A stretch of 64,000 nt of DNA from Pseudomonadota bacterium (lineage in GTDB: Bacteria; Bdellovibrionota; UBA1018; CAIMNF01). The DNA lies in assembly GCA_027491115.1 (NCBI GenBank), contig JAIXWV010000020.1, positions 1 through 64,000 of the forward strand, written 5' to 3'. The first letter of the stretch is position 1, and every line of letters starts with the position of its first letter. Both the position numbers and the translations under genes were made by a program. Of the stretch, positions 2,575 to 49,823 are shown in pieces. The notes below the pieces were generated by a model. That model was not told the DNA's origin. It made no database searches and saw only the letters and a program-made list of their open reading frames with translations.

Positions 2575-3212
2575 GGATTACCTCCCTGTTTCGAAGCTGG
2601 GACCCTGCCCTGCTTCGCACGCGCGATCATTTTAATCGCGTCCTCCATCTTGGGATCGTATTTCAAGGCCTGCTCGTACCACTTGATACTTTCTGCGAAC
2701 TTGCCCTGCACAAAATAAATAGAAGCCCTCATGGACAGTGCTCTCGGAAAGTCAGGATATTCGGCGATCACCCGGTCGAGTTCGATCTGGGCCCGTTCGT
2801 ATTCTTTCTTCAGGGCGAACTTTTGCGCTGCAAAAAGACGGTCGAGTATCTCTCCGGCGATCTTCACCTGTTTGACATCGTCTCCCTCTTTCATCTTCAC
2901 ATCGACAGAAGTGAGCAGGGTCCCGAACCGGGTGGACGGAACACTTTGTTTCTGTGTCACGTAGCCCTTTTTCTCGACGATGAAGTTGAAGTACTCACCG
3001 GCGAGGATGTCCGGACCCGCCACCTCCTTCAGTGTGGAGGGGGAAATTTCCACAGGGGTCCTGCCAACCGACTTTTTCACCCCGGTCTTGGGGTTCTCCA
3101 CAAAAACTTCGGCGTCGATCGGATCGCTCTTCACTTGGAAGGAAGCACCCGCGCATCCGAGTGCGGAGATGATAGAAATCAGTACCAGTGAAACGAGAGT
3201 GTGTCTCATCAT
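2571..3212 (-). CDS. PEGA-TPR lipoprotein
   Basis: The protein has 213 residues. The N-terminus MMRHTLVSLVLISIISALGC is a type II signal peptide with lipobox ALGC, so it is probably anchored in the outer membrane. Residues ~25-105 look like a PEGA/carboxypeptidase-regulatory-like beta domain (VKSDPIDAEVFVENP, then GRTPVEI and an FIVEKKGY turn). Residues ~125-205 form two or three TPR-like helix pairs (ALSMRASIYFVQGKFAESI, YEQALKYDP). It is the first gene of a tight minus-strand trio and overlaps the next gene by 4 bases. TPR lipoproteins of this kind usually scaffold secretion, pilus or gliding complexes. The partner here is not proven. Confidence 0.75.
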   Translation of the reverse strand: MMRHTLVSLVLISIISALGCAGASFQVKSDPIDAEVFVENPKTGVKKSVGRTPVEISPSTLKEVAGPDILAGEYFNFIVEKKGYVTQKQSVPSTRFGTLLTSVDVKMKEGDDVKQVKIAGEILDRLFAAQKFALKKEYERAQIELDRVIAEYPDFPRALSMRASIYFVQGKFAESIKWYEQALKYDPKMEDAIKMIARAKQGRVPASKQGGNP

Positions 3213-3323
3213 ACCGGCTTCTTCGGCGGGCCCGCAGAAGATCTTGAGTGCGTCAAAATAACAGCGGTGTTTCAGGGAAATCTTTGCCCATTGTATCGTC
3301 TCGCCCCTGAGCTAAACTCATTC

Positions 3324-33856: not shown

Positions 33857-33873
33857 TCCATTTATCAAATGGA
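33857..33873 (-). terminator. Weak hairpin at the end of the Tad block
   Basis: On the minus strand, TCCATTT and AAATGGA form a 7-bp stem around a 3-base loop, followed by TATTGTTTATTATT. The stem contains the end of the YD-repeat gene, with the stop codon partly in the loop. The stem is AT-rich, so termination would be inefficient, but it is the only candidate at the end of the ~16-kb minus-strand block. Confidence 0.4.
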
Positions 33874-35556
33874 CATGGTGACACCCGCCGGTGCGGTGAT
33901 GTCAATGAGGCTCTGGAGAGCCCTCATCACCTCAACCGATACGCTGGCGCCGCCATTACTATCCACCTTGTCCACCTCACCGCTGTTCTTGTAGGTGAAC
34001 TTGACTGTCCCAAGCTTGGCGTCCCTGATCTCGACTGGCTTGGAGAGCTCATTGTATTTGAACATGAGCTGGCGACCGGCTTGATCCACCAGGGCGCTGA
34101 TTCTGCCTTGGGCGTCATAAATCAATTTCACTAGCTTCTTGTCACTGTTACGCGCAACGAGGAGGTTCCCGGTTGCCTTGTCGTACTCGAACTCGCTCCA
34201 AATCACCGTACCGCTGGTCACCTTTTTGACAACCTTGGAGACCTTCCCGATCACCGGATCGTAAGTCAGTGTTGTGGTATGGAGCGGAGTCACCTTCCGG
34301 ATCATCCTACCCTTCACATCGTACTCCATGGTGGTGATCTTTCCATTCGCAGCAATCTTCAGTGGATAACCGAGCTTCTCGTCGTAGACGGTCTCGGTTT
34401 TTTCGCCGTCCACCGTGGTGACCATTCGTGCGGTGAACTCCTCGCCGCTCGGCTTGGTCTTGTAAAAATACTCGTACTTAGAATCGTTGAGTTTTGCACC
34501 TGAGGCGTCTTTCAACACCACGCGGACGGAGTAATAGCCGGGGGTCTTCCCAGCAAGCTCGTACTCATACTCATTCACCGTGCCGTCCAGATTCACCACC
34601 GATTTCACGCTGGAGTTCTTTTCTGACCCGTAATAACTCACGATCATCCGCTTCGGTTCGCCCTTAGCGTTTCGCTCATTAGGATACCCGATCTCTGAAA
34701 GGTTCCTGTACTGATCTGCCGTGTACTTGAACGTGTTCTCGACACCGGCATCATCCTTGCTGTAAACCAGAAACCCCTCTTTCGAGTACTTGAATTCGGC
34801 TTTCTTCCCGCTTTCTCCGGCAATTCGTTCCACCAGACCGAACTGGTTGTACGAGAAAACCATCTTCCGATTCTGGTTGTCGATCATCTGCGCCACCCGG
34901 CCGTTCGAGTCATAAGAAAAATTCACGAAGTTCCGGTTGCGATCCATGATCTGAACCAATCGTCCGGATTCATTGAATTTCTGGATCATACCCGCTTCCA
35001 TGACCCGGGTGTACCCGCCCTTCACACGGGTGAGGTATTGGTATTGATAATCTGTGGAGATGAACTGGGTATTTTCGGCAATCACTTTGCGCTGGAGCGA
35101 CCCTTTGTTCACGAAAATGGCATACTGTTTCGACCTGAAATCGGGATTCTCTTTAAGGCGCTTTCGGTATTCCTCGAGCCCTTTGGCACTGGTGATGGTC
35201 CCTGCCTTCTGAGCGGCACTCACGACTGCCTTGATCCCTTCGTCTACGTCGTTTGTAGAGTAAGTTTTTGGGCTGAAACGGATGTTCGCACCTCCGCCAT
35301 ACTCGCTCAGAAGCAAGCTCCCGTCTGGATCGAATGAAAGACGGGTTTCGTATTCGGTGCCCCAGCTGTAACCAAACATGCCATGAAAATCCGACTTCGA
35401 ATTATAGACCCGTTCGATTTTCGGCTCCATTCCACCCGGGTAGGAAATATCCCTGAGTGACACGAAAAAATTTCCGTTCCGAAGACTCACATCCGCACGA
35501 GCAAATGCGCTGGACACCGAAAGCAATGCTCCCAACAAGATCAAAACTCTGGTCAT
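33865..35556 (-). CDS. Secreted YD-repeat (RHS-like) protein
   Basis: From ATG 35556 (GAGGTGAG five bases upstream) the protein has 563 residues. A signal peptide (MTRVLILLGALLSVSSAFA) is followed by a DUF6531-like start (YPGGMEPKIERVYNSKS, GMFGYSWGTEYETRL) and then YD-type repeats along the whole chain (NFVNFSYDSNGRVAQMIDNQ, TTMEYDVKGRMIRKV, VKLIYDAQGRISALVDQ). It lacks the RHS core boundary and any C-terminal toxin domain, so it is a short beta-rich shell rather than a polymorphic toxin. It begins 11 bases after the tadB stop and is probably the last gene of the Tad operon, perhaps a pilus-associated adhesin or tip protein. Confidence 0.8.
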   Translation of the reverse strand: MTRVLILLGALLSVSSAFARADVSLRNGNFFVSLRDISYPGGMEPKIERVYNSKSDFHGMFGYSWGTEYETRLSFDPDGSLLLSEYGGGANIRFSPKTYSTNDVDEGIKAVVSAAQKAGTITSAKGLEEYRKRLKENPDFRSKQYAIFVNKGSLQRKVIAENTQFISTDYQYQYLTRVKGGYTRVMEAGMIQKFNESGRLVQIMDRNRNFVNFSYDSNGRVAQMIDNQNRKMVFSYNQFGLVERIAGESGKKAEFKYSKEGFLVYSKDDAGVENTFKYTADQYRNLSEIGYPNERNAKGEPKRMIVSYYGSEKNSSVKSVVNLDGTVNEYEYELAGKTPGYYSVRVVLKDASGAKLNDSKYEYFYKTKPSGEEFTARMVTTVDGEKTETVYDEKLGYPLKIAANGKITTMEYDVKGRMIRKVTPLHTTTLTYDPVIGKVSKVVKKVTSGTVIWSEFEYDKATGNLLVARNSDKKLVKLIYDAQGRISALVDQAGRQLMFKYNELSKPVEIRDAKLGTVKFTYKNSGEVDKVDSNGGASVSVEVMRALQSLIDITAPAGVTMSI

Positions 35557-35566
35557 TTTTCTCACC

Positions 35567-36442
35567 TCAGACATCGATTTTTGTCACCTTCTTGATTACA
35601 AAATAAGCCACGATCATCAAAATTGCCACGGTAGAGAGACCCAACCAACCGAGCCAAGTCTCGAACATGGGCCTCATGAGCTCCGGGTCGGACTGGGAAA
35701 GCGTCAATCCCATAAAGGGAGGAACGCCCAGCAAAATCATTCCCTGCCAGAAAGCGGAAGCGGTCATCGCCTTGATCTTGTTCTCCACTTTGATCCGTTC
35801 ACGAATCAATGTGGTGATGGTATCAAAGGTTTCCGCCAAATTTCCCCCGGTCTCCTTCAGAATGACCACCGAAGTCACGAACATCTCCACTTCGTCCGCA
35901 ACGACCCGCTTGGACAGATCGATGAATGCAGACTCGAGCGAGGAACCGAGTTTATTCTGGTTCAGGACCAACTCGAACTCTGACTTGATTGGCTCTGGCA
36001 TCTCTTGGGCAACGAGACCCATCGCCTGGGAGACCGAGAGCCCCGATCGCATACCGTTCGACATGAGTCCGAGTCCGTCGACCATTTGTTCGACGAATCG
36101 ATCGACACGCTTCTGGTAAAGTACGTTCACGATCGGTTTCGGAAGAAACCAGGCCGCAACAGCGACCATTCCCCCGAGTGCGCCACCCGCCTTAATATTG
36201 GGCAAACAAGCCAAAAAAACCAAGCCCCCCAGACCAGAGGAGAATGCTACTTGATACATGAGGATCTTCTCGAGGGGAAGATCGATCATCATCAACTTGA
36301 GTTTGTCAGCAATGTAGTCTCGGGTTCCTATGGAGTGGAACCTCACCCAGTCGAGAATACGTCCTGAAAACTGGTAGGCGACCAGCAACGCCGAAACAAA
36401 TACGACGAGGCCGAGCAGCCAATGAGGAATCACGAAACTCAT
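35567..36442 (-). CDS. tadB: Tad pilus platform protein TadB
   Basis: The 291-residue inner-membrane protein has a T2SSF domain (~110-245: MVDGLGLMSNGMRSGLSVSQA, then a long helical hairpin ending with GGNLAETFDTITTLI, RERIKVENKIKAMT). There are membrane helices near the N-terminus, around 60-100 and in the last 60 residues. The RERIKxxxKIKA turn is typical of TadB rather than TadC. It lies 18 bases after the TadZ-TadA fusion ATPase, its expected partner. TadC is at the other end of the block. Confidence 0.88.
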   Translation of the reverse strand: MSFVIPHWLLGLVVFVSALLVAYQFSGRILDWVRFHSIGTRDYIADKLKLMMIDLPLEKILMYQVAFSSGLGGLVFLACLPNIKAGGALGGMVAVAAWFLPKPIVNVLYQKRVDRFVEQMVDGLGLMSNGMRSGLSVSQAMGLVAQEMPEPIKSEFELVLNQNKLGSSLESAFIDLSKRVVADEVEMFVTSVVILKETGGNLAETFDTITTLIRERIKVENKIKAMTASAFWQGMILLGVPPFMGLTLSQSDPELMRPMFETWLGWLGLSTVAILMIVAYFVIKKVTKIDV

Positions 36443-36460
36443 ACCACCATGATACTGAGG

Positions 36461-38614
36461 TTATTTGACCGCGAAAAGACCCCGAGAGATTTTCATTCCT
36501 TTCGCCTCCATCTCTTCCACGAATTTAGGGATGAAACCGGTGGGAACGAACCTGCCAATAATCTTACGGTTCTTGTCTAGACCCTCTTGCTTGTAAATGA
36601 AGATGTCCTGGATGGTCACCGTTTCGCCCTGCATTCCCAGCACCTCCGAGACATACGTGACCTTCCTCGTTCCGTCAGTCAGACGGGATTGCTGGATGAT
36701 GAGGTTGACGGCACTGGCAACCGTTTCCCGGATAGCCTTCAGCGGCAACCCCATACCTGCCATCATCACCAGGGTCTCCAGACGGCCAATGCATTCTCTC
36801 GGGTTGTTGGCATGGACGGTGGTCAATGAGCCTGAATGACCCGTGTTCATGGCTTGCAACATGTCCAGAGCCTCTCCACCCCGGCACTCCCCGACCACGA
36901 TCCGGTCAGGACGCATCCTGAGGCAGCACTTGATCAGATCCCGAATGGAAACCTCACCCTCACCTTCAATGTTTTTCGGACGAGTCTCTAACCGAACCAC
37001 GTGTTCCTGCCCGAGCTGCAGCTCTGCCGCATCCTCGACTGTGATAATCCTTTCGGTCGCAGGAATGAAGTTCGATAACACATTGAGCAAGGTGGTTTTA
37101 CCCGAACCGGTACCCCCAGAAACCACGATATTGAGCTTGGCCTCGACACAAGCCCGAAGAAAATCTGCGATCTCCTGAGTCATTGAACCGAACTTCACCA
37201 GATCCGAAGCCATGATCCTTTTCTTCGGAAACTTCCGGATGGTGATCGTAGGCCCCCTGAGTGCAAGAGGTGGAATGATGACGTGAACCCGGGAACCATC
37301 CGCAAGTCGGGCGTCCACATAGGGCGTCTTCTCATCAACTCGGCGACCGAGGGGCGTCACAATCCGCTCGATGACATTCATCATCTGCTGTTCGCTCGAA
37401 AAGGTGACCTTAGACAATCCCGGCTTACCGCCCTGTTCAACATAGATCTGGTCCCGAGCATTCACCATGATCTCGGTCACAGAATCATCGGCCAAAAGGT
37501 CCTCGAGTGGTCCGAGACCGAGCGCTTCATCGAGAACTTCTTTGACCAGCTGGGCTCTGAGCTCACGAGTCGGACAAAGTGTCGAGACATCCTCCTTGGC
37601 CAAAACATCGAGAATCGCCTTCTGGGTCTTCTCGCGCAGGACTTCTCGTTGTTTGGAGTCCGCCACATCAGCGTTCATTTTCTTCATGTCGACGACATCG
37701 ATGAGCGCCTTGTGGATCCGCAGTTTCATGCTCGTCCAAGGATCGGTTGGAGCCGATTTGGATCGGGCTAGTAATCCGCCCCCACTTTCTCCGCCGCCAT
37801 CAGCGGCAACCACGGCCGCCGATCCCGCCTTCTGGGCAACACCAGTGGGCTTGTTCAGTTTAGCCAATTGATCGAGCATTTTACTCTGATCCATCCGGCG
37901 AACCAGATCGGAAAACGCCCTAGAAATCGCAGCTCCCGGATTAACCATGGTGAACGGCTGACTCTTTGTGAGGGAATTTTCACACGTGGCGGCATCCTCG
38001 GGAATGGCGAAGTAAGGAGCCTTATTGATACTCTTCTGGATGATCTGAGGATTGATTACATTATTCGGAGAGTAGCGGTTGACCACCACTTGGACCATTT
38101 CCTGCGGAAAAAGCAGTTCCTGGACCTTTCCAAGAATCCGACGAGTCTGATTCAGTACGATGACATCGGGAGTGGTCACGACAAAAATGAGGCTCGCCTG
38201 CTCCATCGCCTTCAAGGCATGAGGATCGGTTCCGTTTCCACAATCAATCACCACCCAAGGGAAGATACCGACTGCCGCTTTCAAGAATTTTCCAAGACCG
38301 TCGAGATCGATATCCTTGGCCAAGGCCGCCTCACGTGGTGCTCCGATGAAGCTGAAACCCTGCGGAGAGTTCGCGAGAAAAGGAGTCATCGCTTTGGGAT
38401 CCCAGGTTCCCACCTGGGCTTTCGTCACATCCACGATGTTCTTAGCCGGGTTCATGCCGAGAATGATGTTTTGGTCTCCCAGACTCTGGAAATCAAGATC
38501 AAGAATCAATGAGCGCTGCTTGAAATTCATCTGGTAGGCGATAGCGAGGTTAGCAGCGAAGACACTCTTCCCGACACCTCCCTTTCCTCCAACCACTGCG
38601 ATGATGTGTCCCAT
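36461..38614 (-). CDS. TadZ-TadA fusion: MinD-like domain joined to pilus ATPase
   Basis: The protein has 717 residues. Residues 1-245 are a ParA/MinD-type ATPase with deviant Walker [10 protein letters not shown] (9-17) and [11 protein letters not shown], as in CpaE/TadZ, which localises Tad machines; the receiver-like domain of CpaE is absent. A Gly/Ala-rich linker spans ~246-295. Residues ~296-717 are a complete CpaF/TadA secretion ATPase with Walker [10 protein letters not shown] (500-508), Walker B in [15 protein letters not shown] and [10 protein letters not shown]. In usual tad loci these are two neighbouring genes. No stop or frameshift separates them here, so position and energy supply are physically coupled. 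Confidence 0.93.
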
Positions 38615-38632: not shown

Positions 38633-40339
38633 TCAGCGGGTGCTCGATGTCATCCGAAAATTCTTTTTCAAATCTTCCGTACCTTCGGAGGCGTTGTCGA
38701 TGATCTGCGGGTTCACAAAAATGACAAACTGACCTCTGGACTTCGACATGTTCTTTGAACGCTGGAAACTAAAGAGCGGTTTAGTCTGTGCCGCTCCTTG
38801 GGTTTGCTGGAATGCTCCCGGGGCGGCATCATCTCGATTGAACGAAGTGGCAACATCCTGCTTGTTCACAGCCGTCAAAGCCGCGGTTTCCCCGGACTTC
38901 AGATACAAACGGGTTTTGACTTTGTGACTGGCCACAATCGGTGTGCCATTAGCGCCCTTACCAACCTGGTTGCTTTGTTCAATGTCCACATTCACATCGA
39001 CGTCCTGACCTTCAAGAATTGAAGGGGTCATCTTGATGTGGAACCCGACCGGTACAGGCTGACCATTACCCTGGGTTCCACCCTGCCCGAGCGCTTGTGT
39101 CGGAACCTGAACCTGGTCCCTGACCTCACCTTCCTCCCTGTTCTTAACGATGATTGTCGCTGACTTCATGATTCGACCATAAGACGCATTCGACGGAGGA
39201 GAACTGATGGTCGGAAACAGGGAGGTCAACGTCCCGCTAAAGGTGAACCCACCGCCATTGGTACCCACCCCCCCGGTCGCCGTCGTCCCGACACTGATAC
39301 TCGGGTCCGATGCAAATCCTGGCTGCCACTTGAAGCCAAAAGCTTTGAGGAAGTCCTTGCCCAATTCCACGAAGTAAACAGTCATCCGAACCAACTTACT
39401 CTCGCGCTTAGGGGGCGGTGCCTGAACCGTGATATCGGACTGGAGGATGAAGGTTTTCTTGTCTTGTTCCATCTCAATCACATTCTGGTCACTCCCGACA
39501 TTCTCCTTGAACCTGACCATCGGAAGATAATAATACGCGCGATTGTAAGCGCGTTGTTTGGCACCTTCACTGTCAACGGTACCCTCGAGGATGATTTTTC
39601 CGTTGATCACCGACGCACGTACGGTCGGCGCAAACACTTGAATGTCCTGTTCGATCCGTTTTGCCAGGAAGTTCAGGGTGACAGGCGACATCTTCACTTT
39701 GTTGATCACCTCTTTGCCGTACAGATCGCCAGACAACTCATTGTTGACGGTACTGAAATCGGCAGTAGTGAGAACCTCTCCCCGAAGTACGATATTTTTC
39801 TCTTCGATATTGATCGTGATCCCCTCGACCTCTTTGAGATTGTCGCGCAACCGTTCGAGATTCCGAATCTGGTTGGCCTGAGCGACAATCACCTCAAAAA
39901 TCAGACGCACGTTTCCGGCATCATCACGCACAGTGACGTTCGTCTCTCCAACTGCAGCTGGCTTGAATATCAGCTGCTTACGTTCCCCGGCGATCACGGG
40001 AAGAACATTGACGACAGACACGTTTCCGACCAGAACCTTTTGCGACGTATCCCCAGTAATTTTCAGATTCGCTTCAAGATCAACGGTTTTGTCCACTCCG
40101 GCAGTCAAAAGGAGGGCTCGTCGATCTGCCTCAGCCTCACTCCGATCGGCGGAATATCGAGACCGGGCGTAAGTAGCCTTCTCCTCGGGGGCACGACGAC
40201 GCTTCCGCTCTTTCCGCTCCTCGTTTGTACTTTCCGGATTGCCCTCCCCAGAAGACGGAGGGGCCGATTCCTGCTGTGCCAGGGTTTCAACCGGAAGGTA
40301 AAGCACACCGAGCAGAAGCCAGACGGGAACTTTCAACAT
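38633..40339 (-). CDS. cpaC: Tad pilus secretin CpaC/RcpA
   Basis: The 568-residue outer-membrane secretin has a signal peptide ending near TLAQ, a Glu/Arg/Lys-rich linker, a pilus-assembly N-terminal domain (~80-155: VDLEANLKITGD, AAVGETNVTVRD), one or two BON-like modules (~165-275) and the secretin domain (~310-550: TVYFVELGKDFLKAFGF, Gly-rich gate, VKTRLYLKSGETAAL, FVIFVNPQIID). It forms the pilus pore. It starts two bases after the cpaB stop. Confidence 0.92.
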   Translation of the reverse strand: MLKVPVWLLLGVLYLPVETLAQQESAPPSSGEGNPESTNEERKERKRRRAPEEKATYARSRYSADRSEAEADRRALLLTAGVDKTVDLEANLKITGDTSQKVLVGNVSVVNVLPVIAGERKQLIFKPAAVGETNVTVRDDAGNVRLIFEVIVAQANQIRNLERLRDNLKEVEGITINIEEKNIVLRGEVLTTADFSTVNNELSGDLYGKEVINKVKMSPVTLNFLAKRIEQDIQVFAPTVRASVINGKIILEGTVDSEGAKQRAYNRAYYYLPMVRFKENVGSDQNVIEMEQDKKTFILQSDITVQAPPPKRESKLVRMTVYFVELGKDFLKAFGFKWQPGFASDPSISVGTTATGGVGTNGGGFTFSGTLTSLFPTISSPPSNASYGRIMKSATIIVKNREEGEVRDQVQVPTQALGQGGTQGNGQPVPVGFHIKMTPSILEGQDVDVNVDIEQSNQVGKGANGTPIVASHKVKTRLYLKSGETAALTAVNKQDVATSFNRDDAAPGAFQQTQGAAQTKPLFSFQRSKNMSKSRGQFVIFVNPQIIDNASEGTEDLKKNFRMTSSTR

Positions 40340-40340
40340 A

Positions 40341-41198
40341 TCACTTCAAACCTCCGCCACTTGCCGGCAAGCGCTGTCCTTCCGACAAGACATCAGTGGC
40401 ACGGGAAGGCGCACTGATAGCCACTCGATCGGCATCATCATTGTTTCTGAGTGACAGAATCAGGCGGTTTGAGTTGTCGGTGTATATGGCAGCCACCAAC
40501 TGGGCTTGAACTGGGTCGAGCTCGAGAGTCACGGAACTGTATCCGTCATATTCGGTCAGAGACCGTACGCGAGCAGCTCCGCCCATGTCGACCTCCACAC
40601 GACGAGCCACATTATTTGCAATCGAACGACCCACCGCAAGAATCACCACGTCTTGGAATACAGTTTTTGCCGTTTTGACATCGCGGCCACCCACCCCCAT
40701 GGACTGAACGACTGCAATGACATCCACTCGATCCCCTGGCTTCACCAGTTTTGCGACACTGGTCGACTCGTCAATCGGAACGGCAATGGCACGTTTGCCC
40801 GGTGTCACTTGCGGAGCCAGACCGGTACGCATGCTGGGCTCAGTGATTTTGTTCAAAGTCAGCTGCTCACCTTTTTTAATCGCTACAATCGCCACATTCC
40901 CAACGATCCGTTTAGATTGTATGGAATAGGCCTTGGCACCCTCTATGGACTCGACGTCCAGTTTCCCGTCAAACTTGACGGCAGTGGGCTCAACAAAGTT
41001 TCTCGGTACGGACTTAGCCTCTACCATTCCATCTAGAATGGTCGCCATTTCACGAATGTCTTGCTTTGCGACCAAGACAGTGACTTCGTCCCCGTATTTC
41101 ATGGTGGCACTCTGTTCAATACTCGAGACGGAACTCATCACAAAGAAAACGGCGACCCCTGCCATCACCAACGACAATGTCATTGCTCTGCTATTCAT
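40341..41198 (-). CDS. cpaB: Tad pilus assembly protein CpaB/RcpC
   Basis: The 285-residue protein has one N-terminal membrane anchor (AMTLSLVMAGVAVFFVM) and a SAF-like beta-clip domain (~45-125: VLVAKQDIREMATI, KRIVGNVAIVAIKKGEQL), then the RcpC region (GKRAIAVPIDESTSVAKLV, PGDRVDVIAVV). It acts in the periplasm with the secretin. ATG 41198 overlaps the previous stop by one base (TGATG), with GGAG seven bases upstream. Confidence 0.93.
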   Translation of the reverse strand: MNSRAMTLSLVMAGVAVFFVMSSVSSIEQSATMKYGDEVTVLVAKQDIREMATILDGMVEAKSVPRNFVEPTAVKFDGKLDVESIEGAKAYSIQSKRIVGNVAIVAIKKGEQLTLNKITEPSMRTGLAPQVTPGKRAIAVPIDESTSVAKLVKPGDRVDVIAVVQSMGVGGRDVKTAKTVFQDVVILAVGRSIANNVARRVEVDMGGAARVRSLTEYDGYSSVTLELDPVQAQLVAAIYTDNSNRLILSLRNNDDADRVAISAPSRATDVLSEGQRLPASGGGLK

Positions 41199-41722
41199 CA
41201 CTGATCTCCGATCCAAGACCCGTCATACTGACAGGCCATTTTTCTGAACGGCCAACGTTGATTCGCCAAGGCAGTGACCTGAAGTGAATCCATCGCAGTC
41301 CCCTTAGTCACCGAATTGCTCTGGGTACAAATGGCCGCTGTCCCTCTGATACGAACATCGGTCCTGGATCTCACTTCTCCACGCTCATTACTGCCTCTCG
41401 ACTTTTTATTTCCAATCGACTGTATTTGAGGAATCGCGGGCATATCGCCATCAGACGCCGCCTCTTCGATTGCCAAGGGATCCGACACACCCACCACCAA
41501 CATGTCGTGTGCATTCTTCACAAGGCGACTCTTCCTAAGCTGCAAACGAGGGTATTCAGGAGAATTGTTTGTCAGAACAAACAGCTGCGCTCTGGCGTAG
41601 CGAGCATTGTTGATCGCCATTTGGATCCCCGTGTTCATTCGGATCAACAAACCCACCAAAATGAAGAGGAAGGGAAGAAATAAGATGACTTCCAATATGC
41701 TTTGGCCTTCATCAGCATCCAT
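41198..41722 (-). CDS. TadE-like pseudopilin 2
   Basis: From ATG 41722 (GGAG seven bases upstream) the protein has 174 residues. It has a very short leader MDADEG, then QSILEVILFLPFLFILV: a prepilin-type site (cleavage after Gly, Glu at +5) with the Pro seen in TadE hydrophobic segments. The rest is a soluble domain ending CQYDGSWIGDQ with two widely spaced Cys. TadE/TadF minor pilins are processed by the TadV peptidase, which is not in this window. It overlaps the previous gene by 11 bases. Confidence 0.8.
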   Translation of the reverse strand: MDADEGQSILEVILFLPFLFILVGLLIRMNTGIQMAINNARYARAQLFVLTNNSPEYPRLQLRKSRLVKNAHDMLVVGVSDPLAIEEAASDGDMPAIPQIQSIGNKKSRGSNERGEVRSRTDVRIRGTAAICTQSNSVTKGTAMDSLQVTALANQRWPFRKMACQYDGSWIGDQ

Positions 41723-42257
41723 TGTCCCACTCCACCTTGACGTTTTGAACACCGGTCATCGCCTCAATCCTGGCTTTCGCCCTTTGACATTCATCTTCAC
41801 TGCGCTCACGAGGCATCCAGCTTTCACTGGTCAGATCCAACATCACCGCCTGGTCATTCGCACTAAAGGGGTAAAAAGAGAGTTTGGCCGAAAAATGATA
41901 GGACGCACCATGGTTCCACTCCTCGATCGGACCGAGGCTTGTAAAATAGTTCCCATCGCCCACGAAAATACCGTCACCTGACTTAGCTTGGATCAGCCCT
42001 TTGAATTTGCCACTCACCATGGTCTGAAGGACCTGCTTGGCATTCTCTTCCTGAACCATCTGGTCTTTGGCCGAAGATGCCAGGGTTCGTGCTGACATGA
42101 AGGTCGCGTATTGGATGTAGTTTGAGATTGCAAAGACAGCGCTGAGGCGGACATAAAAAAAGAAAAACGAAATGACAATGAGGAGCCCGAGTATGAACTC
42201 GATCACCGCTTGTCCTTCATTGTTTTTCTCAATGTTTTCACACACCATCTCATTCAC
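41712..42257 (-). CDS. TadE-like pseudopilin 1
   Basis: The protein has 181 residues. A leader ending NNEG is followed by QAVIEFILGLLIVISFFFFYV, again Gly-Gln with Glu at +5. It lacks the Pro of classical TadE helices. The soluble C-terminal domain contains a Cys pair (DECQRAKARIEAM and the terminal DNGC). The start overlaps the preceding stop as ATGA; ATG 42248 is an alternative. It is probably a minor pilin in the same series as its neighbours. Confidence 0.78.
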   Translation of the reverse strand: MNEMVCENIEKNNEGQAVIEFILGLLIVISFFFFYVRLSAVFAISNYIQYATFMSARTLASSAKDQMVQEENAKQVLQTMVSGKFKGLIQAKSGDGIFVGDGNYFTSLGPIEEWNHGASYHFSAKLSFYPFSANDQAVMLDLTSESWMPRERSEDECQRAKARIEAMTGVQNVKVEWDNGC

Positions 42258-42541
42258 TCTATCGTCGGATTGTAAAAAATCCTGAAGTTCTGCTCGTCGT
42301 ATCCCTTACTCTGAACTGTCGGAATGTTGACAGGTCCTCCATCGTCCATCCCCTTTGCTTTGGGGTGCCCGTACCGGTAAGTGTTGCTGAAGTCCTTGGT
42401 TAGAGGTTTTTGCATCTTCTGAAAGATCTCACGATCACCAAGCTGACGGATCAATGCCCCATACAGTCCGACCAGAATCGCCAAAAGAATAATGTATTCG
42501 ACCACGGCTTGTCCTAGGTCGTTCCGCTTCACTTTCTCCAC
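42254..42541 (-). CDS. Flp-like pilin 2 (GTG start)
   Basis: The protein has up to 95 residues. Leader MEKVKRNDLG, cleavage after Gly, then QAVVEYIILLAILVGLYGAL with the Glu-Tyr pair typical of Flp pilins. The ~60-residue hydrophilic C-terminal part (KDFSNTYRYGHPKAKGMDD) is longer than in classical Flp. The start is GTG at 42541 or, with better spacing from GGAG, GTG at 42532. It overlaps the preceding pilin gene by about 13 bases. Confidence 0.78.
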   Translation of the reverse strand: MEKVKRNDLGQAVVEYIILLAILVGLYGALIRQLGDREIFQKMQKPLTKDFSNTYRYGHPKAKGMDDGGPVNIPTVQSKGYDEQNFRIFYNPTIE

Positions 42542-42720
42542 ACTCCCGCAGAGGCGGCCCCGGTCCGGAGTTGCCGCTCGACTTTTCCACCTATTCCCAG
42601 AACCGCTTTGTCAAACGAACCGTTCAAAGTTCGCAAGAGCCCCACCATGATCAATACAACCATGGATAGGAGTAAGATGTATTCAACGATGGCTTGCCCC
42701 GATCGACTTTCCCGAATCAA
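42529..42720 (-). CDS. Flp-like major pilin candidate (TTG start)
   Basis: At 63 residues it has the size of a Flp pilin. Leader MIRESRSG, cleavage after Gly, then QAIVEYILLLSMVVLIMVGLL with the Glu-Tyr pair, and a short basic tail. The start codon is TTG with AGGGGG four or five bases upstream. This Shine-Dalgarno partly lies in the 3' arm of a perfect hairpin, so translation may be controlled. It is the best candidate for the main pilus subunit in the window. Confidence 0.8.
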   Translation of the reverse strand: MIRESRSGQAIVEYILLLSMVVLIMVGLLRTLNGSFDKAVLGIGGKVERQLRTGAASAGVWRK

Positions 42721-42759: not shown

Positions 42760-43488
42760 TTAAAAGCCGAGCCAAATCATCGACGCATTCCCAGGGGACC
42801 GAGCAGACTCCAATTGATCCTTGAGTCCATGAGGATCATTGAGGGCGTGGATTTTCTGACGTAAGGTCTGACGCACGCCTCCGCTTTCAAAAAAAACCTG
42901 ATCTCCCGCCCTGAGTTCAAGCTCAGTCATTTCGGGCTCGAGAGAGCGGGCCGTCCCGAAACTCATGAGCGGCACGGAGTCGCCGGGACCTTCTTCACTC
43001 ATGGGATCGGTCTGCCTCAATAGACTCCTTGCAGGGATGAGTTCCTTCAACTGACCGGCACGCTTGAGCCTCAGGCGACAGGCTCCCACCCGCGCTACAG
43101 ACAGGAGGCGCCCCTCCAGATAGCCTGCAACCAAACTCGCGCCGCCAGAATCCTGCCAGTTTCTTCCACGGTTCATCTCGAGAATCTTCTGATTTGCGAA
43201 AGCCACAGCATTGAACAGGACGTTCCCTGCGAGCGAGAAGTACGGCCGCAACTCGAAAGGCATGGTCGCATCGAGGTCACCCGCCTCATGCTCCAGGTAC
43301 TGACGAACTGATTTGACTACCATCTCTGCGGCACGAAATCCCAGTGCTCCACCGAAGCCGTCGGCCAATATGTAGATACCCCGCTCTGGATTCAGCTCGA
43401 AGTAGTCTTCTTGCACAGGAGCATCACCTTGAATCTGGAAACCTTCTGCAAAACGGAGTTGAATCCGGGAGCGTGGAACGGTAGTCAC
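42760..43488 (-). CDS. PP2C-like pseudophosphatase
   Basis: The 242-residue protein has the order of PP2C motifs: QEDYF (26-30), ILADGFGG (40-47), DSGGASLVAGYLEGRLLSV (113-131). Several metal-binding positions are replaced: VGDS becomes VGAC (134-137), SDG becomes SGG (202-204), and the terminal DN becomes GN (233-234). Only the first aspartates remain. It is therefore probably catalytically dead or very weak and may bind a phosphoprotein without cleaving it. It overlaps the upstream double-FHA gene by 4 bases, which supports a phosphothreonine-related role in pilus control. Confidence 0.75.
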   Translation of the reverse strand: MTTVPRSRIQLRFAEGFQIQGDAPVQEDYFELNPERGIYILADGFGGALGFRAAEMVVKSVRQYLEHEAGDLDATMPFELRPYFSLAGNVLFNAVAFANQKILEMNRGRNWQDSGGASLVAGYLEGRLLSVARVGACRLRLKRAGQLKELIPARSLLRQTDPMSEEGPGDSVPLMSFGTARSLEPEMTELELRAGDQVFFESGGVRQTLRQKIHALNDPHGLKDQLESARSPGNASMIWLGF

Positions 43489-45740
43489 TTTCCGCCCTCC
43501 TGCGCCTTACGGAGAGTCGTGAAAACTTTCAGCCTCGCCTTGGCTTTAACATGATAAGAATTGTCGGCTGGAACCGTATCAATCACTTCTCGATATTTCT
43601 TCTCGGCAACATCATAGTCACCGAACCCTTCCGCAATGACACCATCCGAATAAATTGCTTTTGCCGCGGAGTTCAACTGACCCTGTATCCTCTTGATGCC
43701 GGCAGGGCCCTCGGCGTCCGACGGATCAATAGCCATCGCCGCCTTGTATTCACGATGTGCTTCCCCGAGCTTACCCTCTGCCTCAAGTCGCTTTCCATTC
43801 TCGATGTGCGGGTCGCGCTCGGCTGCCATCAATTTTTCAATATCCCGAATACGTCCTTCCACCTGCTTCAAAAACTTAGCATCCAGATCAGTCCGCTCGA
43901 CCACATCGTCCAAGATCTCAAGTGCGTCCACATAGCGCTTCTCTTTGAAGAGACCTTCGGCCGTCTCGACATCCGCCTTGGCTTTAGAGAGGATGCCGAC
44001 TAGACGCTTCTTGTTCTCCTCTTCAACTTTCCGCTTTTCGCTCTCTTCCAGGATCTTCTTTCTCCAGGCTGAAACCGCGGCATTTTCAGGCTCCAAAATC
44101 TCAATCTCAGGAAACAGCTCCTCCGCCTCCAAGTACTTTCCTTCTTCCATCAAGCTACTGGATCGACTCAACAACTCTTCGAGCTTGAGCTTGGACTGTC
44201 GCTCCTGTTCCTTTCGCTTTCTGTCTTCTTCCTGAGCCTCAAGGCGTCGCTTGGCTTCCCTGGCATAAGTCTCGATCTCCCTGGCACGCTTGTGCTCCTG
44301 GACAATCTTGAAAATCTTGTCGAGCTCAAATAGCGACTTGTCATAATCGCGATTCTTGTAATGCTCGAAAGCCAAATCATACTGCGCGTCGACATAGTCC
44401 TTCTGGTCCTTCGTCAACATCTCGTAAGTGACACCACCACCAGGTTTCTTTTCGGTCTTCTTCTGGGCTTTTCTCTGCTCGGCAACTGGATCCACTGCAT
44501 TGACCGGTGGAGGTGGCTCATCGAAAATAAAATACATCCCGGCCAACACCACCAGTCCGTAGATCATCTGCTGTTTGGTGTTGAGCATCCGGTAACGCTG
44601 GATCAGGCGACCGAGCAAGGACTGGGTCTCTTCCTCGGGAACAGTGAAATCGGGAGCCACCGGTTCGGAAATCTCCGGACCCACTTGAGGTATCTCCTGG
44701 GTGAAAGCAGGAAAGCCTCCGCCCAGACCCGGGGCGGGCATCGCGGGAATCGGTGCATGAACCACGGACGACGGGAATCCCTCTGACATGACAGGAGATA
44801 GAGGCTCCGCCGGGACCTGAAAGAATTCCGCCTTTTTCTGCTCGTAGTCGCTTTGGACCACTTTGAAGGTGAATTGGGTGTCGCCGATCCGAATGACATC
44901 TCCGCTGTGCAGCTCCTGCTCATCGACTTTTTCACCGTTCAGTAATGTTCCGTTCGCCGAGCCGAGATCCTTCAGGTGGTGCTTGCCGTTCTTCTGGACG
45001 ATAATTGCGTGTTTTCTTGAAGAACGCTTATCTTCGAGCACAACGTGACACTTCTGGGAACGTCCAATAGCAATCTCAGAGTCGACGATATCGTAGAACC
45101 CCATACTCGCTGTTCCATCACCGAACTCAAGAATGGGCTTCATGACTCGTGAAGTATTCTTGAGCACCCGTGTGGCAGCATCCTGATCGACCTCTGAAAA
45201 ATCAAAACTCCGGGTCGCTCCTGACGGTGCTGGTTCATGGTCTGGGGTCTGGAACGGATCTGTCGCACTCGGCGAGAACACTTCCGCCTGTTGCGAAGCA
45301 ACCTCGAAGGGATTGTCCTCGCTCGAAGCTTGGGCCTCAATCACCTCCGAAGCAGGGAATGCGGGGGCGGTGATTGCGGGCTCCGTCACCATTACGGGGG
45401 GGGGCGCTTGAACCTCCTGTTGTCCTCCTTTGGCTTGAACTGCCGCCTCTTTCACAAATCGTATTTCAAAGGAACCCAGCTCGAGCCGCTCGCCCCCTTG
45501 AATGAGTGCATGTTCGGTTTCTTTACCATTGATCCGGGTCGTTCCAAATTTGGACTTTTTCTCGAACTCAATACCGTTTGATGTCGAGCGGATGAGTGCG
45601 TGCTTCCGCGAGATGGCCCGATCATCCAACCGGACTATACATTCTTCGTCTCTACCTAGCCAAAGCTCCTGACCATCAAAAGGAATGGTTCGGAGGAGTT
45701 CACCGTTCTGGAAAACTTCGAGACGTAAGGATCCGCTCAT
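43485..45740 (-). CDS. Double-FHA membrane protein with TPR-like tail
   Basis: The protein has 751 residues. The first FHA domain spans ~1-98 (LGRDEECIVRLDDRAISRKH) and the second ~205-298 (AIGRSQKCHVVLEDKRSSRK with HAII, DLGSANGTLLNGEKV). Both keep the Arg, Ser and His that read phosphothreonine, and the second also the SxxNG. Long Pro-rich linkers follow, one membrane helix at ~391-406, then a charged coiled coil (~440-620) and TPR-like repeats (~640-740). FHA faces the cytoplasm; the tail is probably periplasmic, where TPR proteins such as TadD act. It overlaps the neighbouring FHA and PP2C-like genes by 4 bases each. Confidence 0.88.
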   Translation of the reverse strand: MSGSLRLEVFQNGELLRTIPFDGQELWLGRDEECIVRLDDRAISRKHALIRSTSNGIEFEKKSKFGTTRINGKETEHALIQGGERLELGSFEIRFVKEAAVQAKGGQQEVQAPPPVMVTEPAITAPAFPASEVIEAQASSEDNPFEVASQQAEVFSPSATDPFQTPDHEPAPSGATRSFDFSEVDQDAATRVLKNTSRVMKPILEFGDGTASMGFYDIVDSEIAIGRSQKCHVVLEDKRSSRKHAIIVQKNGKHHLKDLGSANGTLLNGEKVDEQELHSGDVIRIGDTQFTFKVVQSDYEQKKAEFFQVPAEPLSPVMSEGFPSSVVHAPIPAMPAPGLGGGFPAFTQEIPQVGPEISEPVAPDFTVPEEETQSLLGRLIQRYRMLNTKQQMIYGLVVLAGMYFIFDEPPPPVNAVDPVAEQRKAQKKTEKKPGGGVTYEMLTKDQKDYVDAQYDLAFEHYKNRDYDKSLFELDKIFKIVQEHKRAREIETYAREAKRRLEAQEEDRKRKEQERQSKLKLEELLSRSSSLMEEGKYLEAEELFPEIEILEPENAAVSAWRKKILEESEKRKVEEENKKRLVGILSKAKADVETAEGLFKEKRYVDALEILDDVVERTDLDAKFLKQVEGRIRDIEKLMAAERDPHIENGKRLEAEGKLGEAHREYKAAMAIDPSDAEGPAGIKRIQGQLNSAAKAIYSDGVIAEGFGDYDVAEKKYREVIDTVPADNSYHVKAKARLKVFTTLRKAQEGGK

Positions 45741-46792
45741 TGCGCCTCCGTTTTCTTCAACTCTTTCAATGCCGTCTCACACTCGACAAATAAAGGATTT
45801 TCTCGATCAAAATACAAGTGCCTGATCGCAGTCTCGTACAATCCGATAGCCTTGCGATTCCGTCCAAATTCTTTGGCAATTCTGGCGGATTCTACAATCT
45901 TACGAATCTCTTCACGATTCTCGTGTTCAGAATGCATCAAGTAGTATCTGGCCCGACCATGATGGGGATTGACCTGCAAAGCGAGTTCGAAGGCCTCCTT
46001 AGCACGAAGGTAATTCCCTGCGGTGTACTCGCGGAAACCCAAGGCAAAATGCTGCTCCGCAGTCTTTTCGACCTCACGAGAAACAGTCGGGGGAGCAAGA
46101 GAGGCAACATCTCTGACTTCCGCGTCCTTCTTGTCCGAACCTTTCCGGTTTTTTTTGGCACTGCCGTTTTTCGACTTGGGCGTTTCAGGAAGGAGTTCCG
46201 CAACTATCCCAAGACCGAAATCCTCGAGTAATGGTCGGGCCTCATCCGGATAAAGGTAGGCTGCGACAGCGAGACCAATGCCGGCGAGAATCAGAGGACT
46301 CCGCTTCTCCTTCTTCTTTTTTTGTATCCCGGCAACAGGCCGCGAAAAGTTCTTTACCTTAACTTTCTGCTGGGCAAGGGCCACATCGAGTCGCTCGATA
46401 TCTCGGTTTTCTTTGACCGGTGCCATCAGGGCCCGATCGGACTCCCGACTCATCAGAAATTCCAGAACACTGTCACCGATGGTGAAATGATCCCCACTCT
46501 TCAATTTGAACTTCCGTACGAACTCACCAGAATAGAATATACCGTTGGCAGACCCGAGATCGCTCACCATCCAACCCTCATGGGTGAATTCGATCCGCGC
46601 ATGACTCCTGGATGATTTCGGATCAGCCAGGATGATATCCACCGTTTCGCCTCGACCCACGGTAAAGATTGATTCTTTGACTACAAAAGTCGCTCCGACA
46701 TCGGGGCCCTTGATGACCCGCAAGCGCGCAAACTCACCCGCTTGGCGGGGAACCTCGGCCTTATTGAATCGGAAGACCTTGTCGCGAATCAT
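45737..46792 (-). CDS. FHA membrane protein with TPR-like tail
   Basis: The protein has 351 residues. The FHA domain covers ~23-115 (VGRGETVDIILADPKSSRSH, then VSDLGSANGIFYSG), with all phosphothreonine-binding residues. A Lys-rich stretch precedes one membrane helix (~165-181). The C-terminal ~110 residues hold TPR-like pairs (AEQHFALGFREYTAGNYLRA, KEAFELALQVNPHHGRARYY). It is a shorter relative of the next gene's product. It starts three bases after the upstream FHA gene's stop and overlaps the downstream one. Confidence 0.88.
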   Translation of the reverse strand: MIRDKVFRFNKAEVPRQAGEFARLRVIKGPDVGATFVVKESIFTVGRGETVDIILADPKSSRSHARIEFTHEGWMVSDLGSANGIFYSGEFVRKFKLKSGDHFTIGDSVLEFLMSRESDRALMAPVKENRDIERLDVALAQQKVKVKNFSRPVAGIQKKKKEKRSPLILAGIGLAVAAYLYPDEARPLLEDFGLGIVAELLPETPKSKNGSAKKNRKGSDKKDAEVRDVASLAPPTVSREVEKTAEQHFALGFREYTAGNYLRAKEAFELALQVNPHHGRARYYLMHSEHENREEIRKIVESARIAKEFGRNRKAIGLYETAIRHLYFDRENPLFVECETALKELKKTEAQ

Positions 46793-46795
46793 GGA

Positions 46796-48463
46796 TCAGG
46801 TTTCCTTCTTTCTGAACAAAAGCGCGATACCCGCCTGATCCCTAGGTCCGACAAGGGTGGCAACCACGGAATAATCGATTCCCTGGAATTCGAACTTGTC
46901 GGTGGCGGTTCGGTTCCCGGAGCGCTCGGCATTGCCTTTCATTTCGGTCACAAGTGAATTCATCGCCTGATCACCGACCTGGGCCAGGGTTTGACCCACC
47001 GAATCCGTGCGGATTCCGCTCAGTTCCGAGAAAAAGGGATTGACCGTCACGAGTACAAGATTCGAATCAAATCCGATCAACCCCATTTGACCGGAATCGG
47101 TGATCGCGAGCCAGGGTGCGAACTCGGTTTCCCACATCACGACACCCTCTTCCCCTGATGGATCGCCCTTACCCATCCTCTGGACCGCGGCATTGACGTT
47201 GTCCCACAGCTTTTCTATCGGTCCGACCTTAAATTCCTTAGTTACTCTCGGGATTTCCCCCCGCAAAACCTGGTCGAGGTCGTCGTTCATGACCTCGTAA
47301 GGTTTCTGAATCAGTCGCAAGAGTATGAAGTAGAACATCAAGCCAATGATGGCGGTATAGATGATGGCTGAGCCATAAGCGATCTCCAAGCCACCTGCAG
47401 TCACCATGTTCCGAGAGAAGTCGATCGAAATCAGGGCAAGGGCCACCACTTCATTGGCGTAAGTTCGTGGATCGGCCGCCTTGATGGGTTCGACATGCAC
47501 ATAGGTGTTAGTGTCGAGGAACATCCCACCACCTTTTTCGCGTCCCTCTCGGTACTCCTTGACCATCCTCCTGGCAAATGCAGCCTCACCACCGACCGAA
47601 AACAGCTGCCCCAATCGGGACTGTGGGGCCACAATATTGAGATCCATATTTAGCAGAGCGACTATTTTGATGCTCTCTTCCTGATTCAGTAGGGAAAAAT
47701 CGATTTGGGACTCTGTATGATTGACAAAATGGGGGGCATAGCGATCCGCGATCTCCCGAGCCAGAACGGTTCCACGAATCTTTGCCTCGCGCTGGATTCC
47801 TTGTTCGGCCATGTTCTCCATGGGCATGACCGATGCAAAAACCGCGATGAGCAGCGTGACTCCTAGGAGACCTGCAACAATGTTCGAGAGCTCGCTCTTC
47901 ATCAACATGCCGTAGAATGTAGGCATGATCTTCCCCTCGAAAAGGAATTTTAGTTTTCCGGGAAGATCTTCCGGGAGCTCTTGACTGGGAACAAGATCGT
48001 CGAACTTGGCTTCTTGAAGACTCGCAGGTCCTGACTTCAACGGGCTTTGTGAGGCTCCGGGCAAAGACAAGGCCCCAGCACCACCTGAGAGATCGAATGG
48101 GTTTGAGGGAAGAAGTCCAACTTCGAGTGAATTTGAAAATGAACCGGTTTGCCCTGTCGAAATTTGAGCCGAGGCTCCGGAACGCACCAATTCGAGGACG
48201 AACTCGCCAACTCCCAGTTTGTCTCCGGGCTTCATTGTATGGCGACGAGCAAGCGCACCGTTTACGAATGTCCCGTTGGTGCTCCCTTCGTCCCTCAAGA
48301 TGACTTCCTGGCTAGTGACCAATATCGCACAATGACGTTTCGAAACCTTCGAAGACGTCAACACAATGTGGTTGTCCATTTGACGACCGATGGTGTTTTC
48401 ACCTTCGATCAGGGAAAAAGCACTCCCTCGATTTGGACCGGCGACGATCACGAGGCGATGCAT
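46796..48463 (-). CDS. FHA transmembrane sensor with PAS-like domain
   Basis: The 555-residue protein has an N-terminal FHA domain (~1-95: NTIGRQMDNHIVLTSSKVSK, RDEGSTNGTFVNG), a linker, a first membrane helix (~194-213), ~150 residues of periplasmic sensor region, a second helix (~363-384), a HAMP-like stretch and a C-terminal PAS-like domain (~435-550: LIGFDSNLVLVTVNPFFSEL). It has no kinase or other catalytic output. It could transmit an envelope signal to the pilus through its FHA domain. GGGGAGG precedes the ATG, which lies 16 bases inside the DUF192 gene. Confidence 0.82.
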   Translation of the reverse strand: MHRLVIVAGPNRGSAFSLIEGENTIGRQMDNHIVLTSSKVSKRHCAILVTSQEVILRDEGSTNGTFVNGALARRHTMKPGDKLGVGEFVLELVRSGASAQISTGQTGSFSNSLEVGLLPSNPFDLSGGAGALSLPGASQSPLKSGPASLQEAKFDDLVPSQELPEDLPGKLKFLFEGKIMPTFYGMLMKSELSNIVAGLLGVTLLIAVFASVMPMENMAEQGIQREAKIRGTVLAREIADRYAPHFVNHTESQIDFSLLNQEESIKIVALLNMDLNIVAPQSRLGQLFSVGGEAAFARRMVKEYREGREKGGGMFLDTNTYVHVEPIKAADPRTYANEVVALALISIDFSRNMVTAGGLEIAYGSAIIYTAIIGLMFYFILLRLIQKPYEVMNDDLDQVLRGEIPRVTKEFKVGPIEKLWDNVNAAVQRMGKGDPSGEEGVVMWETEFAPWLAITDSGQMGLIGFDSNLVLVTVNPFFSELSGIRTDSVGQTLAQVGDQAMNSLVTEMKGNAERSGNRTATDKFEFQGIDYSVVATLVGPRDQAGIALLFRKKET

Positions 48464-48813
48464 AGCACCTCCCCGTCACGAATATTGAGGCGATCGACGG
48501 TCCCGGCCGGTAGCTCGAGAACATCCTGAGCTTTTCCGTTACCGACCGGAAGAATTTTCCATGGTCTCAGGCGCGGATGGGTACTCACGACCCTCCATCC
48601 GGATTCGCACTTTCCTAAGAATACGGCATCGATGGGTATGCTCATCATCCACATGTGAATGTTATTGCAACGAGGGAAAAGCAGACCCTCCCCTTCCGGA
48701 AACTCTGTGGTTCCGATCAACCCAACCAAACGACTCAGAAAACCGTCCGCGACGCGGGCACGGTGGGCCACCACCGTTCCATCCTGTTGTCGGACGATCC
48801 GGAGCTCGCGCAT
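48448..48813 (-). CDS. DUF192 protein
   Basis: The 121-residue protein fits the DUF192 family: GFLSRLVGLIGTTEFPEGEGLLF, HMWMMSIPIDAVFL (typical HMxxMxxPID), VLELPAGTVDRLNIRDGE. No signal peptide is seen, so it looks cytoplasmic, although many relatives are secreted. DUF192 genes often accompany Tad loci (next to tadC); the function is unknown. ATG 48813 shares one base with the tadC stop (TGATG), and its end overlaps the FHA sensor gene. Confidence 0.85.
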   Translation of the reverse strand: MRELRIVRQQDGTVVAHRARVADGFLSRLVGLIGTTEFPEGEGLLFPRCNNIHMWMMSIPIDAVFLGKCESGWRVVSTHPRLRPWKILPVGNGKAQDVLELPAGTVDRLNIRDGEVLCIAS

Positions 48814-49736
48814 CAGCCGTCCCCCCCGCTCAAGTATGCCTGCAATCCGAAAGGCATCAACATCATGATCAGAATCGCTGGAAGAATCAGCGCGAAGGTT
48901 GGAAACATGAGCTTTTGAGCCGCGATCGCACCGGCTTTCTCCGCACGCACGAAACGCAAAGTCCGGATCTGGTCAGACTGCTGACGAAGAACTTTTCCGA
49001 TCGATGCTCCCATCTGGTCCGCAGAACACAATACGGCGACGAAGGAATTGACCTCTTGGAGGTTGATCCGAAATGCCATTTCGCGGAGGGCTTCAGAGCG
49101 CGAGGATCCGACCTTGATCTCTTTCAGCACTTGTTCCATCTCGTCAATGAAAGGTCCCGGCGCGGCTTTCTCGACAACCTTTTGGATCGCACCGATGAAG
49201 TCGAGACCAGCTTCGGTAGACAACGCGAGCAAATCCACAACAAAGGGCATGGACTTGATCACTTGGGCATGACGGATTTTGATCCTCCCATTCACCCAGA
49301 AGTCGGGATAGAAGTAACCGACGAGCGGGAGGAAGAACATCACGTAGTTGGGAATGTCTGCGAGATCCAATGCACGAATAAATCCACCCACGATGGGAAA
49401 AACCACCACGAGCATAATCTTGAATGCGATAAATTCATCGGCGGTGAGCTCGTCTTTCAGTCCACCACTGATGATTTTTCGTCTGTATTTCAGCCTTGCC
49501 TCGTCAAATCGAGATTTGCTCCGGATGGCTGGAACGATGTATTGCGAGAAAAACGGACGGGTGAGACGGACGAAGTCGTTCGAGGTTTTCTTTCCGTCGA
49601 GTTGACGGAGATTCTCGCTCGCATTCATGTTCTCCTGCTCGGAAAGCAACATGTTCCCGAGAATGAACGTGGCCAAACCGATCAAGGCGTAGCCTGCATA
49701 TAGAACCAATGTGCGGTACTCGATCAACGCATTCAT
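48813..49736 (-). CDS. tadC: Tad pilus platform protein TadC
   Basis: From ATG 49736 (GGGAG six bases upstream; ATG 49742 abuts it) the protein has 307 residues. It has membrane helices near the N-terminus, at ~115-155 and at the C-terminus, and a T2SSF domain (~165-285: PFVVDLLALSTEAGLDFIGA, LRFVRAEKAGAIAAQKLMFP). The RAEKAxxxAAQKLMFP end is characteristic of TadC. It is the first gene of the Tad block; a weak promoter candidate (TTGAGG, 17 bases, TTAAGG) lies at 49768-49796. Its partner TadB is 12 kb downstream. Confidence 0.88.
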   Translation of the reverse strand: MNALIEYRTLVLYAGYALIGLATFILGNMLLSEQENMNASENLRQLDGKKTSNDFVRLTRPFFSQYIVPAIRSKSRFDEARLKYRRKIISGGLKDELTADEFIAFKIMLVVVFPIVGGFIRALDLADIPNYVMFFLPLVGYFYPDFWVNGRIKIRHAQVIKSMPFVVDLLALSTEAGLDFIGAIQKVVEKAAPGPFIDEMEQVLKEIKVGSSRSEALREMAFRINLQEVNSFVAVLCSADQMGASIGKVLRQQSDQIRTLRFVRAEKAGAIAAQKLMFPTFALILPAILIMMLMPFGLQAYLSGGDG

Positions 49737-49823
49737 GTGCATCTCCCGTCAGCTCTTCGGCATCTTTCCTTAATAACTGAAATGAGTTAGCCTCAAGATG
49801 AAACCCCGCCCCCGGAGGCCCCT

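Follow-up and report, generated by a model that had tools for sequence, protein, structure and literature searches.

The locus analysed here raises the question of what three FHA proteins and a PP2C-like protein are doing within a gene cluster for a Tad pilus, and whether they could form a phosphorylation-dependent switch of that machine, as was proposed in the initial annotation. The window (the whole stretch of 64,000 nucleotides that was analysed) is part of contig C30; the draft genome measures 2.55 Mb and is 98.7% complete. On its minus strand, to which all Tad and cassette genes described below belong, the three FHA genes and the PP2C-like gene (42760-48463) indeed lie between tadC plus a DUF192 gene and the pilin genes. 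The tadC product (48813..49742) is a T2SSF inner-membrane platform protein (Pfam T2SSF, E=2.3e-15) and a conserved neighbour of the cassette; the DUF192 protein (48448..48813; Pfam PF02643, E=3.5e-16) likewise holds a conserved position and occupies the orthologue slot of Bd0471. On the other side of the cassette lie flpA (42529..42720), a small Flp-like pilin recognized by a profile match; flpB (42254..42541), a Flp-like pilin with a weak Pfam match and synteny; a TadE-like minor pilin (41712..42257; weak Pfam TadE match, synteny); a second minor-pilin-like protein (41198..41752; synteny); rcpC/cpaB (40341..41216; Pfam RcpC, E=6.1e-20); the secretin gene rcpA/cpaC (38633..40339; Pfam Secretin, E=4.1e-12, with BON); a TadZ-TadA fusion (36461..38614; a single ORF that matches both Pfam CbiA and Pfam T2SSE); and tadB (35567..36442; Pfam T2SSF, E=7.7e-18). 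The presence of TadA, TadB, TadC, RcpA, RcpC and Flp genes in one locus identifies a Tad (type IVc) pilus, the Flp assignment in the window being made from a weak Pfam match plus synteny. TadV, the dedicated prepilin peptidase, was not found in the Tad locus, and Bdellovibrio is likewise reported to lack it (PMC5430801); the sole Peptidase_A24 match of the genome (G000:C30:186421-186750) is about 140 kb off on the same contig. The MinD-like TadZ and the TadA ATPase form one protein of 717 aa, a fusion that recurs in related loci of the class. The flpA gene encodes 63 aa, overlaps the start of flpB and is easily missed by length cut-offs. An RHS-repeat/DUF6531 protein (33865-35574) comes right after tadB with an 8-base overlap.

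The first cassette protein, FHA1 (46796..48463; orthologue of Bd0472), was identified by Pfam FHA, AlphaFold2 and Foldseek. Its FHA domain (48206..48394; PF00498, E=3.6e-17) is followed in the AlphaFold2 model by a disordered linker, a transmembrane segment (TM), a periplasmic domain, a second TM, and HAMP-like and PAS-like domains, which agrees with the periplasmic sensor and PAS-like domain annotated earlier; the pTM of this model is low (0.38), and the domain order alone is taken from it. FHA2 (45737..46792; orthologue of Bd0473; Pfam FHA and TPR_2, synteny) consists of an FHA domain (46475..46663; PF00498, E=1.9e-16), a TM and a C-terminal TPR-like region. FHA3 (43485..45740; orthologue of Bd0474; two Pfam FHA matches and TPR_2, synteny) carries two FHA domains (45474..45659, E=6.7e-9, and 44883..45071, E=3.0e-21; both PF00498) on either side of a linker, followed by a TM and a TPR domain. 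The TPR-like tails ascribed to two of the proteins are real in FHA3 and weak, with a single Pfam repeat, in FHA2. Similarly, the 4-base overlaps said to join the genes exist between FHA2 and FHA3 and between FHA3 and the PP2C-like gene, whereas FHA1 and FHA2 are 3 bases apart and DUF192 and FHA1 overlap by 16.

The idea that the cassette is peculiar to this window was discarded, as its synteny extends over the whole phylum. DUF192, FHA1, FHA2, FHA3 and PP2C follow tadC in this order in 81 of 88 loci, the 88 being those with at least 6.5 kb following tadC; the figure counts loci rather than independent genomes (the two locus sets share some genomes), and the training data of the profiles were a part of the same set. 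The same order is also seen in loci picked by tadC alone. Judged by their titles and gene content, the best 80 loci of the tadC scan apparently belong to Bdellovibrionota, although a few titles (Nitrosovibrio, Lysobacteraceae) clash with the gene content. Most of the named loci that share this tadC are records of Bdellovibrionales, Oligoflexia, Bacteriovoracaceae and Halobacteriovorax, which places the window's genome in the Bdellovibrionota. A search for relatives in which the FHA genes are not conserved next to tad genes left the association standing, with tadC as the fixed neighbour. The cassette is followed by the pilin, secretin and ATPase genes in the class to which the window belongs; the Bdellovibrionaceae, Bacteriovoracaceae-like and some other families do not have these genes there, yet keep tadC attached. 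Since tadC alone stays linked across the phylum, the partner of the cassette is probably the TadC inner-membrane platform.

The Bdellovibrio predation operon Bd0470-Bd0475 has the same order, tadC-DUF192-FHA1-FHA2-FHA3 (two FHA domains plus TPR)-small protein, and the same domain layout. In the HD100 locus (L186), the slot protein has 228 aa (as does Bd0475), FHA2 has 387 aa counted from the first start (Bd0473, 386 aa), and FHA3 has 674 aa, with Ala673 at the published end of the last domain of Bd0474 (PMC12034629). From these matching lengths and positions we conclude that the window cassette is orthologous to Bd0470-Bd0475, although in HD100 the pilin, secretin and ATPase genes are not next to the operon (bd0109-0119, PMC5430801). 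Transposon mutants of Bd0470 (tadC) do not attach to prey, and those of Bd0474 (Bd0474::tn) attach but neither kill nor round the prey (PMC6561027); these phenotypes come from Bdellovibrio mutants, the window's genome being a MAG. Full-length Bd0474, whose TPR domain is extracytoplasmic, binds another TPR protein, Bd0075, in two-hybrid assays; a signal came from Bd0075 with the TPR Domain-C and none from Domain-A by itself. In an AlphaFold-Multimer model the two proteins touch through their extracytoplasmic C-terminal domains, and another model pairs Bd0473 with Bd0475 (PMC12034629). The initial annotation suggested that the TPR-like tails may replace TadD; the reported partner of the FHA3 orthologue is instead Bd0075. 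The window's genome encodes a distant Bd0075-like protein (E=2.5e-21). Within the window, a GYF_2-like membrane protein (3201-4718) and a TPR protein (2571-3212) are adjacent; Bd0075 also has a GYF-like domain.

Of immediate interest for a switch is whether the FHA domains can read phosphothreonine. All four domains, in three proteins, score above Pfam's cut-off and carry the Arg, S-x-x-H and Asn pocket residues, as annotated from the start; they account for four of the six FHA domains in the genome. Arg, Ser, His and Asn are all kept in FHA1 in 39/40 loci, and are retained in FHA2 and in the second FHA domain of FHA3 in most of the aligned loci. In the first FHA domain of FHA3 the Asn is lost in several of the aligned families, the second FHA domain of Bd0474 has Gln in place of His, and the loss of Asn or His from one or the other FHA3 domain in some lineages counts against a phospho-dependent hub. 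Structural FHA folds, such as that of YscD, manage without the Arg, Ser, His and Asn residues; their retention here therefore favours phosphothreonine binding, and by their residues the FHA domains of the cassette appear phospho-dependent.

A candidate ligand lies within FHA3 itself. The linker between its FHA domains has 103 residues with a median column share of 0.175. Thr190 (codon 45171..45173) is Thr in 39 of 40 aligned FHA3 proteins, with a gap in the remaining one, and is never Ser, as FHA readers specific for phosphothreonine would demand. Thr190 precedes the second FHA domain by about ten positions; its surroundings are acidic, and position +2 is hydrophobic. Its equivalent in HD100 is Thr133 of Bd0474, in the motif DEKTMIG (DEKT133MIG). 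This resembles Thr14 of the HD100 enzyme DgcB (tail MAHNDDNSDNLEKTSIV; motif NLEKT14SIV, LEKTSIV): both sites have E-K-T-x-I in common, and in DgcB as in FHA3 an acidic-K-Thr-x-Ile motif precedes an FHA domain, to which, in DgcB, phosphorylated Thr14 binds in a crystal structure (PMC6733907). DgcB is an FHA-GGDEF protein of B. bacteriovorus that makes c-di-GMP; FHA3, in contrast, sits in the membrane and carries a TPR domain; that it is phosphorylated is a prediction. Given the shared E-K-T-x-I, the simplest inference is that one kinase writes both marks. A motif like that of DgcB Thr14 occurs in 78/80 FHA3 linkers and on average in 35.7/80 shuffled ones; as shuffling often yields so loose a motif, the strength of the claim lies in the fixed Thr column, not in the pattern. 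No conserved Thr was seen in the linkers of FHA1 and FHA2, where one was sought, and our literature search found neither a report of the FHA3 Thr190/Bd0474 Thr133 site nor a Bdellovibrio phosphoproteome. The window's genome has its own FHA-GGDEF orthologue of the predation enzyme DgcB (L002:8992-9921), with the tail DRTAIL.

The pocket residues and the invariant Thr also weigh on the alternative that survives best, namely that the FHA domains are purely structural and, independently of any phosphorylation, surround TadC with a ring or scaffold in the inner membrane, like SctD/YscD of the type III secretion machine. Pfam also matches Yop-YscD_cpl (the cytoplasmic FHA-fold domain of YscD), Foldseek lists YscD, and FHA2 and FHA3 have an FHA-TM-periplasmic layout in common; against this, the pocket is retained across the phylum and the FHA3 linker has its invariant Thr, and we hold this alternative to be unlikely.

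The second question is whether the fourth cassette protein (42760..43488; Bd0475 slot) could erase such a signal, as its first description as a PP2C-like protein implied. It has no PP2C match in Pfam; nevertheless the PP2C/PPM fold is borne out by NCBIfam (Stp1, E=3.7e-11), by a PDB profile search (E=5e-29) and by an AlphaFold2 model (pLDDT 90.9) whose best Foldseek match is tPphA (TM 0.79). The metal site is degenerate: Asp28 and Asp43 are kept, and Ala136, Gly203 and Gly233 stand where active PP2Cs have Asp, so that, of the metal-site acidic residues in the five motifs NED, DG, GDSR, SDG and DN, the three Asp of GDSR, SDG and DN are gone. In the Bd0475 slot of HD100 and its relatives every metal ligand is lost, the HD100 protein being tied to the PP2C family by profile comparison only (probability 99%). 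An active eraser was accordingly rejected for this genome, and the matching eraser originally envisaged finds no support in either the window or Bd0475.

That the slot protein is nonetheless an active phosphatase erasing the signal locally draws on its intact fold and on the four Asp of the two-metal core, which are kept in 35/72 relatives (missing in 37/72) and in 25/27 members of one large lineage. Besides the losses in the window and in Bd0475 and its kin, the GDSR Asp is absent from every PP2C-fold member of the cassette, and the four-Asp core changes state 9 times (at least 5 on well-supported branches) on the tadC tree, a quick tree containing one very long row; the title of a PDB entry further reports that tPphA needs three metals for efficient catalysis. 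We regard local erasure as quite improbable. The simplest reading of the residues is a catalysis-free binding role for the PP2C-fold protein, with phosphatase activity possible in the four-Asp lineages. In the lineages of L102, L176 and L184 the FHA cassette is present, and no gene with a PP2C fold turned up behind FHA3.

Least probable of all is that the FHA set regulates something besides the pilus and neighbours tadC by operon history only. In its favour, several lineages have their pilin, ATPase and secretin genes at other places, and DUF192 has, to our knowledge, no pilus role. Against it stand the persistence of tadC alone beside the cassette over the phylum and the predation defects of both Bd0470 (tadC) and Bd0474 mutants (PMC6561027).

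There is indeed no Ser/Thr kinase in the window, but the inference that the kinase is missing did not survive a search of the whole genome. Its single PF00069 match, a canonical Ser/Thr kinase of 667 aa, lies on contig C18 (L001:8594-10597), which also carries, about 12 kb from the kinase, a canonical PP2C (L104:1372-2142) with all motifs present. A further protein (L105:943-2319) has PP2C, with the full set of motifs, fused to a cyclic-nucleotide-binding-like domain. At least one PF00069 kinase is found in 139/143 relatives, exactly one in many of them, including HD100; the other 4/143 lack a match, which speaks against the hub, but they are drafts; two of them (G056 and G057) keep FHA1 of the cassette. 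The kinase of the window's genome is 42% identical to that of HD100 across 355 residues. The latter is at 3.06 Mb, a position compatible with Bd3148, which it may be; Bd3148 has been put forward as the candidate kinase of DgcB (PMC6733907).

Of the switch as first proposed, what stands is a phosphothreonine-reading module tied to tadC across the phylum, in an operon whose Bdellovibrio orthologue takes part in predation; the PP2C eraser and the absence of a kinase find no support. We consider it reasonably likely that the cassette is a phospho-dependent hub on the TadC platform, and are less sure of each partner named below. The hub would read phosphothreonine on the cytoplasmic face of the platform in a predation-type Tad pilus. 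A signal would arrive, perhaps by way of FHA1's periplasmic domain; the single canonical Ser/Thr kinase, encoded elsewhere, would then phosphorylate the linker Thr of FHA3 (Thr190; Bd0474 Thr133) and probably also DgcB, the FHA-GGDEF enzyme, in its tail. The phosphothreonine would be bound by an FHA domain of FHA1-FHA3 or of DgcB, which may lock the membrane complex and license a pilus step after attachment. The main role of the PP2C-fold protein in this genome would be to bind without catalysis, and the phosphate would be removed by the canonical PP2C whose gene lies near that of the kinase. More tentatively, and with doubts on our part, a phosphothreonine code written by one kinase might run predation as a whole: FHA3 and DgcB would both be marked (acidic-x-Thr-x-Ile/Val), pilus licensing would be coupled to c-di-GMP at prey contact, and the PP2C-fold pseudophosphatase would serve as a phosphopeptide- or FHA-binding subunit.

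Comparable arrangements are known from other secretion machines. Type VI secretion has a PpkA-PppA-FHA switch (PppA structure 6jkv) which, like the window, places FHA and a PP2C-fold protein on a secretion machine, and PppA is among our Foldseek matches; unlike that switch, the window cluster lacks a kinase and its PP2C-fold member is degenerate. The Kil system of Myxococcus xanthus is an FHA-rich Tad-like machine; those who described it include Bdellovibrionales in its range and propose a signalling cascade set off by contact (PMC8460266). Compared by description, the two machines are both Tad-like and rich in FHA proteins, and for Kil no TadD is reported; the Kil-like over-representation of FHA is found in the window locus, which holds 4/6 of the genome's FHA domains. 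Kil has a short secretin without N0; the window secretin is 568 aa long, with BON and a sub-threshold pilus N-terminal match. KilF, however, has an N-terminal FHA domain, whereas the window TadA is fused to a TadZ/MinD-like domain and is without FHA. A protein elsewhere in our data (L003:5415-7340), FHA with a TonB-like C-terminus beside a large TPR protein, resembles gliding-motility proteins of Myxococcus. In T7SSb, the FHA domains of EssC and the pseudokinase EssB (described in PMC11217815) again pair FHA domains with a catalytically degenerate enzyme fold; EssC FHA is without the phosphothreonine site that the window domains keep, and the degenerate partner in the window has a phosphatase fold.

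The association of FHA proteins with Tad genes is thus already known in outline, because the Bd0470-Bd0475 operon and the FHA richness of Kil have been published. Three points appear new within the literature we searched: the invariant Thr of FHA3, the resemblance of its site to that of DgcB Thr14, and the putative identity of the Bd0475 slot as a degenerate PP2C. These bear on the switch from attachment to killing in Bdellovibrio-type predators and on the kinase that licenses DgcB. From the data come a candidate for the marked residue (Bd0474 Thr133), a single candidate kinase and a phosphatase that is probably dead, and the match of the FHA3 Thr to phosphorylated Thr14 of DgcB makes it a directly testable candidate phosphoswitch.
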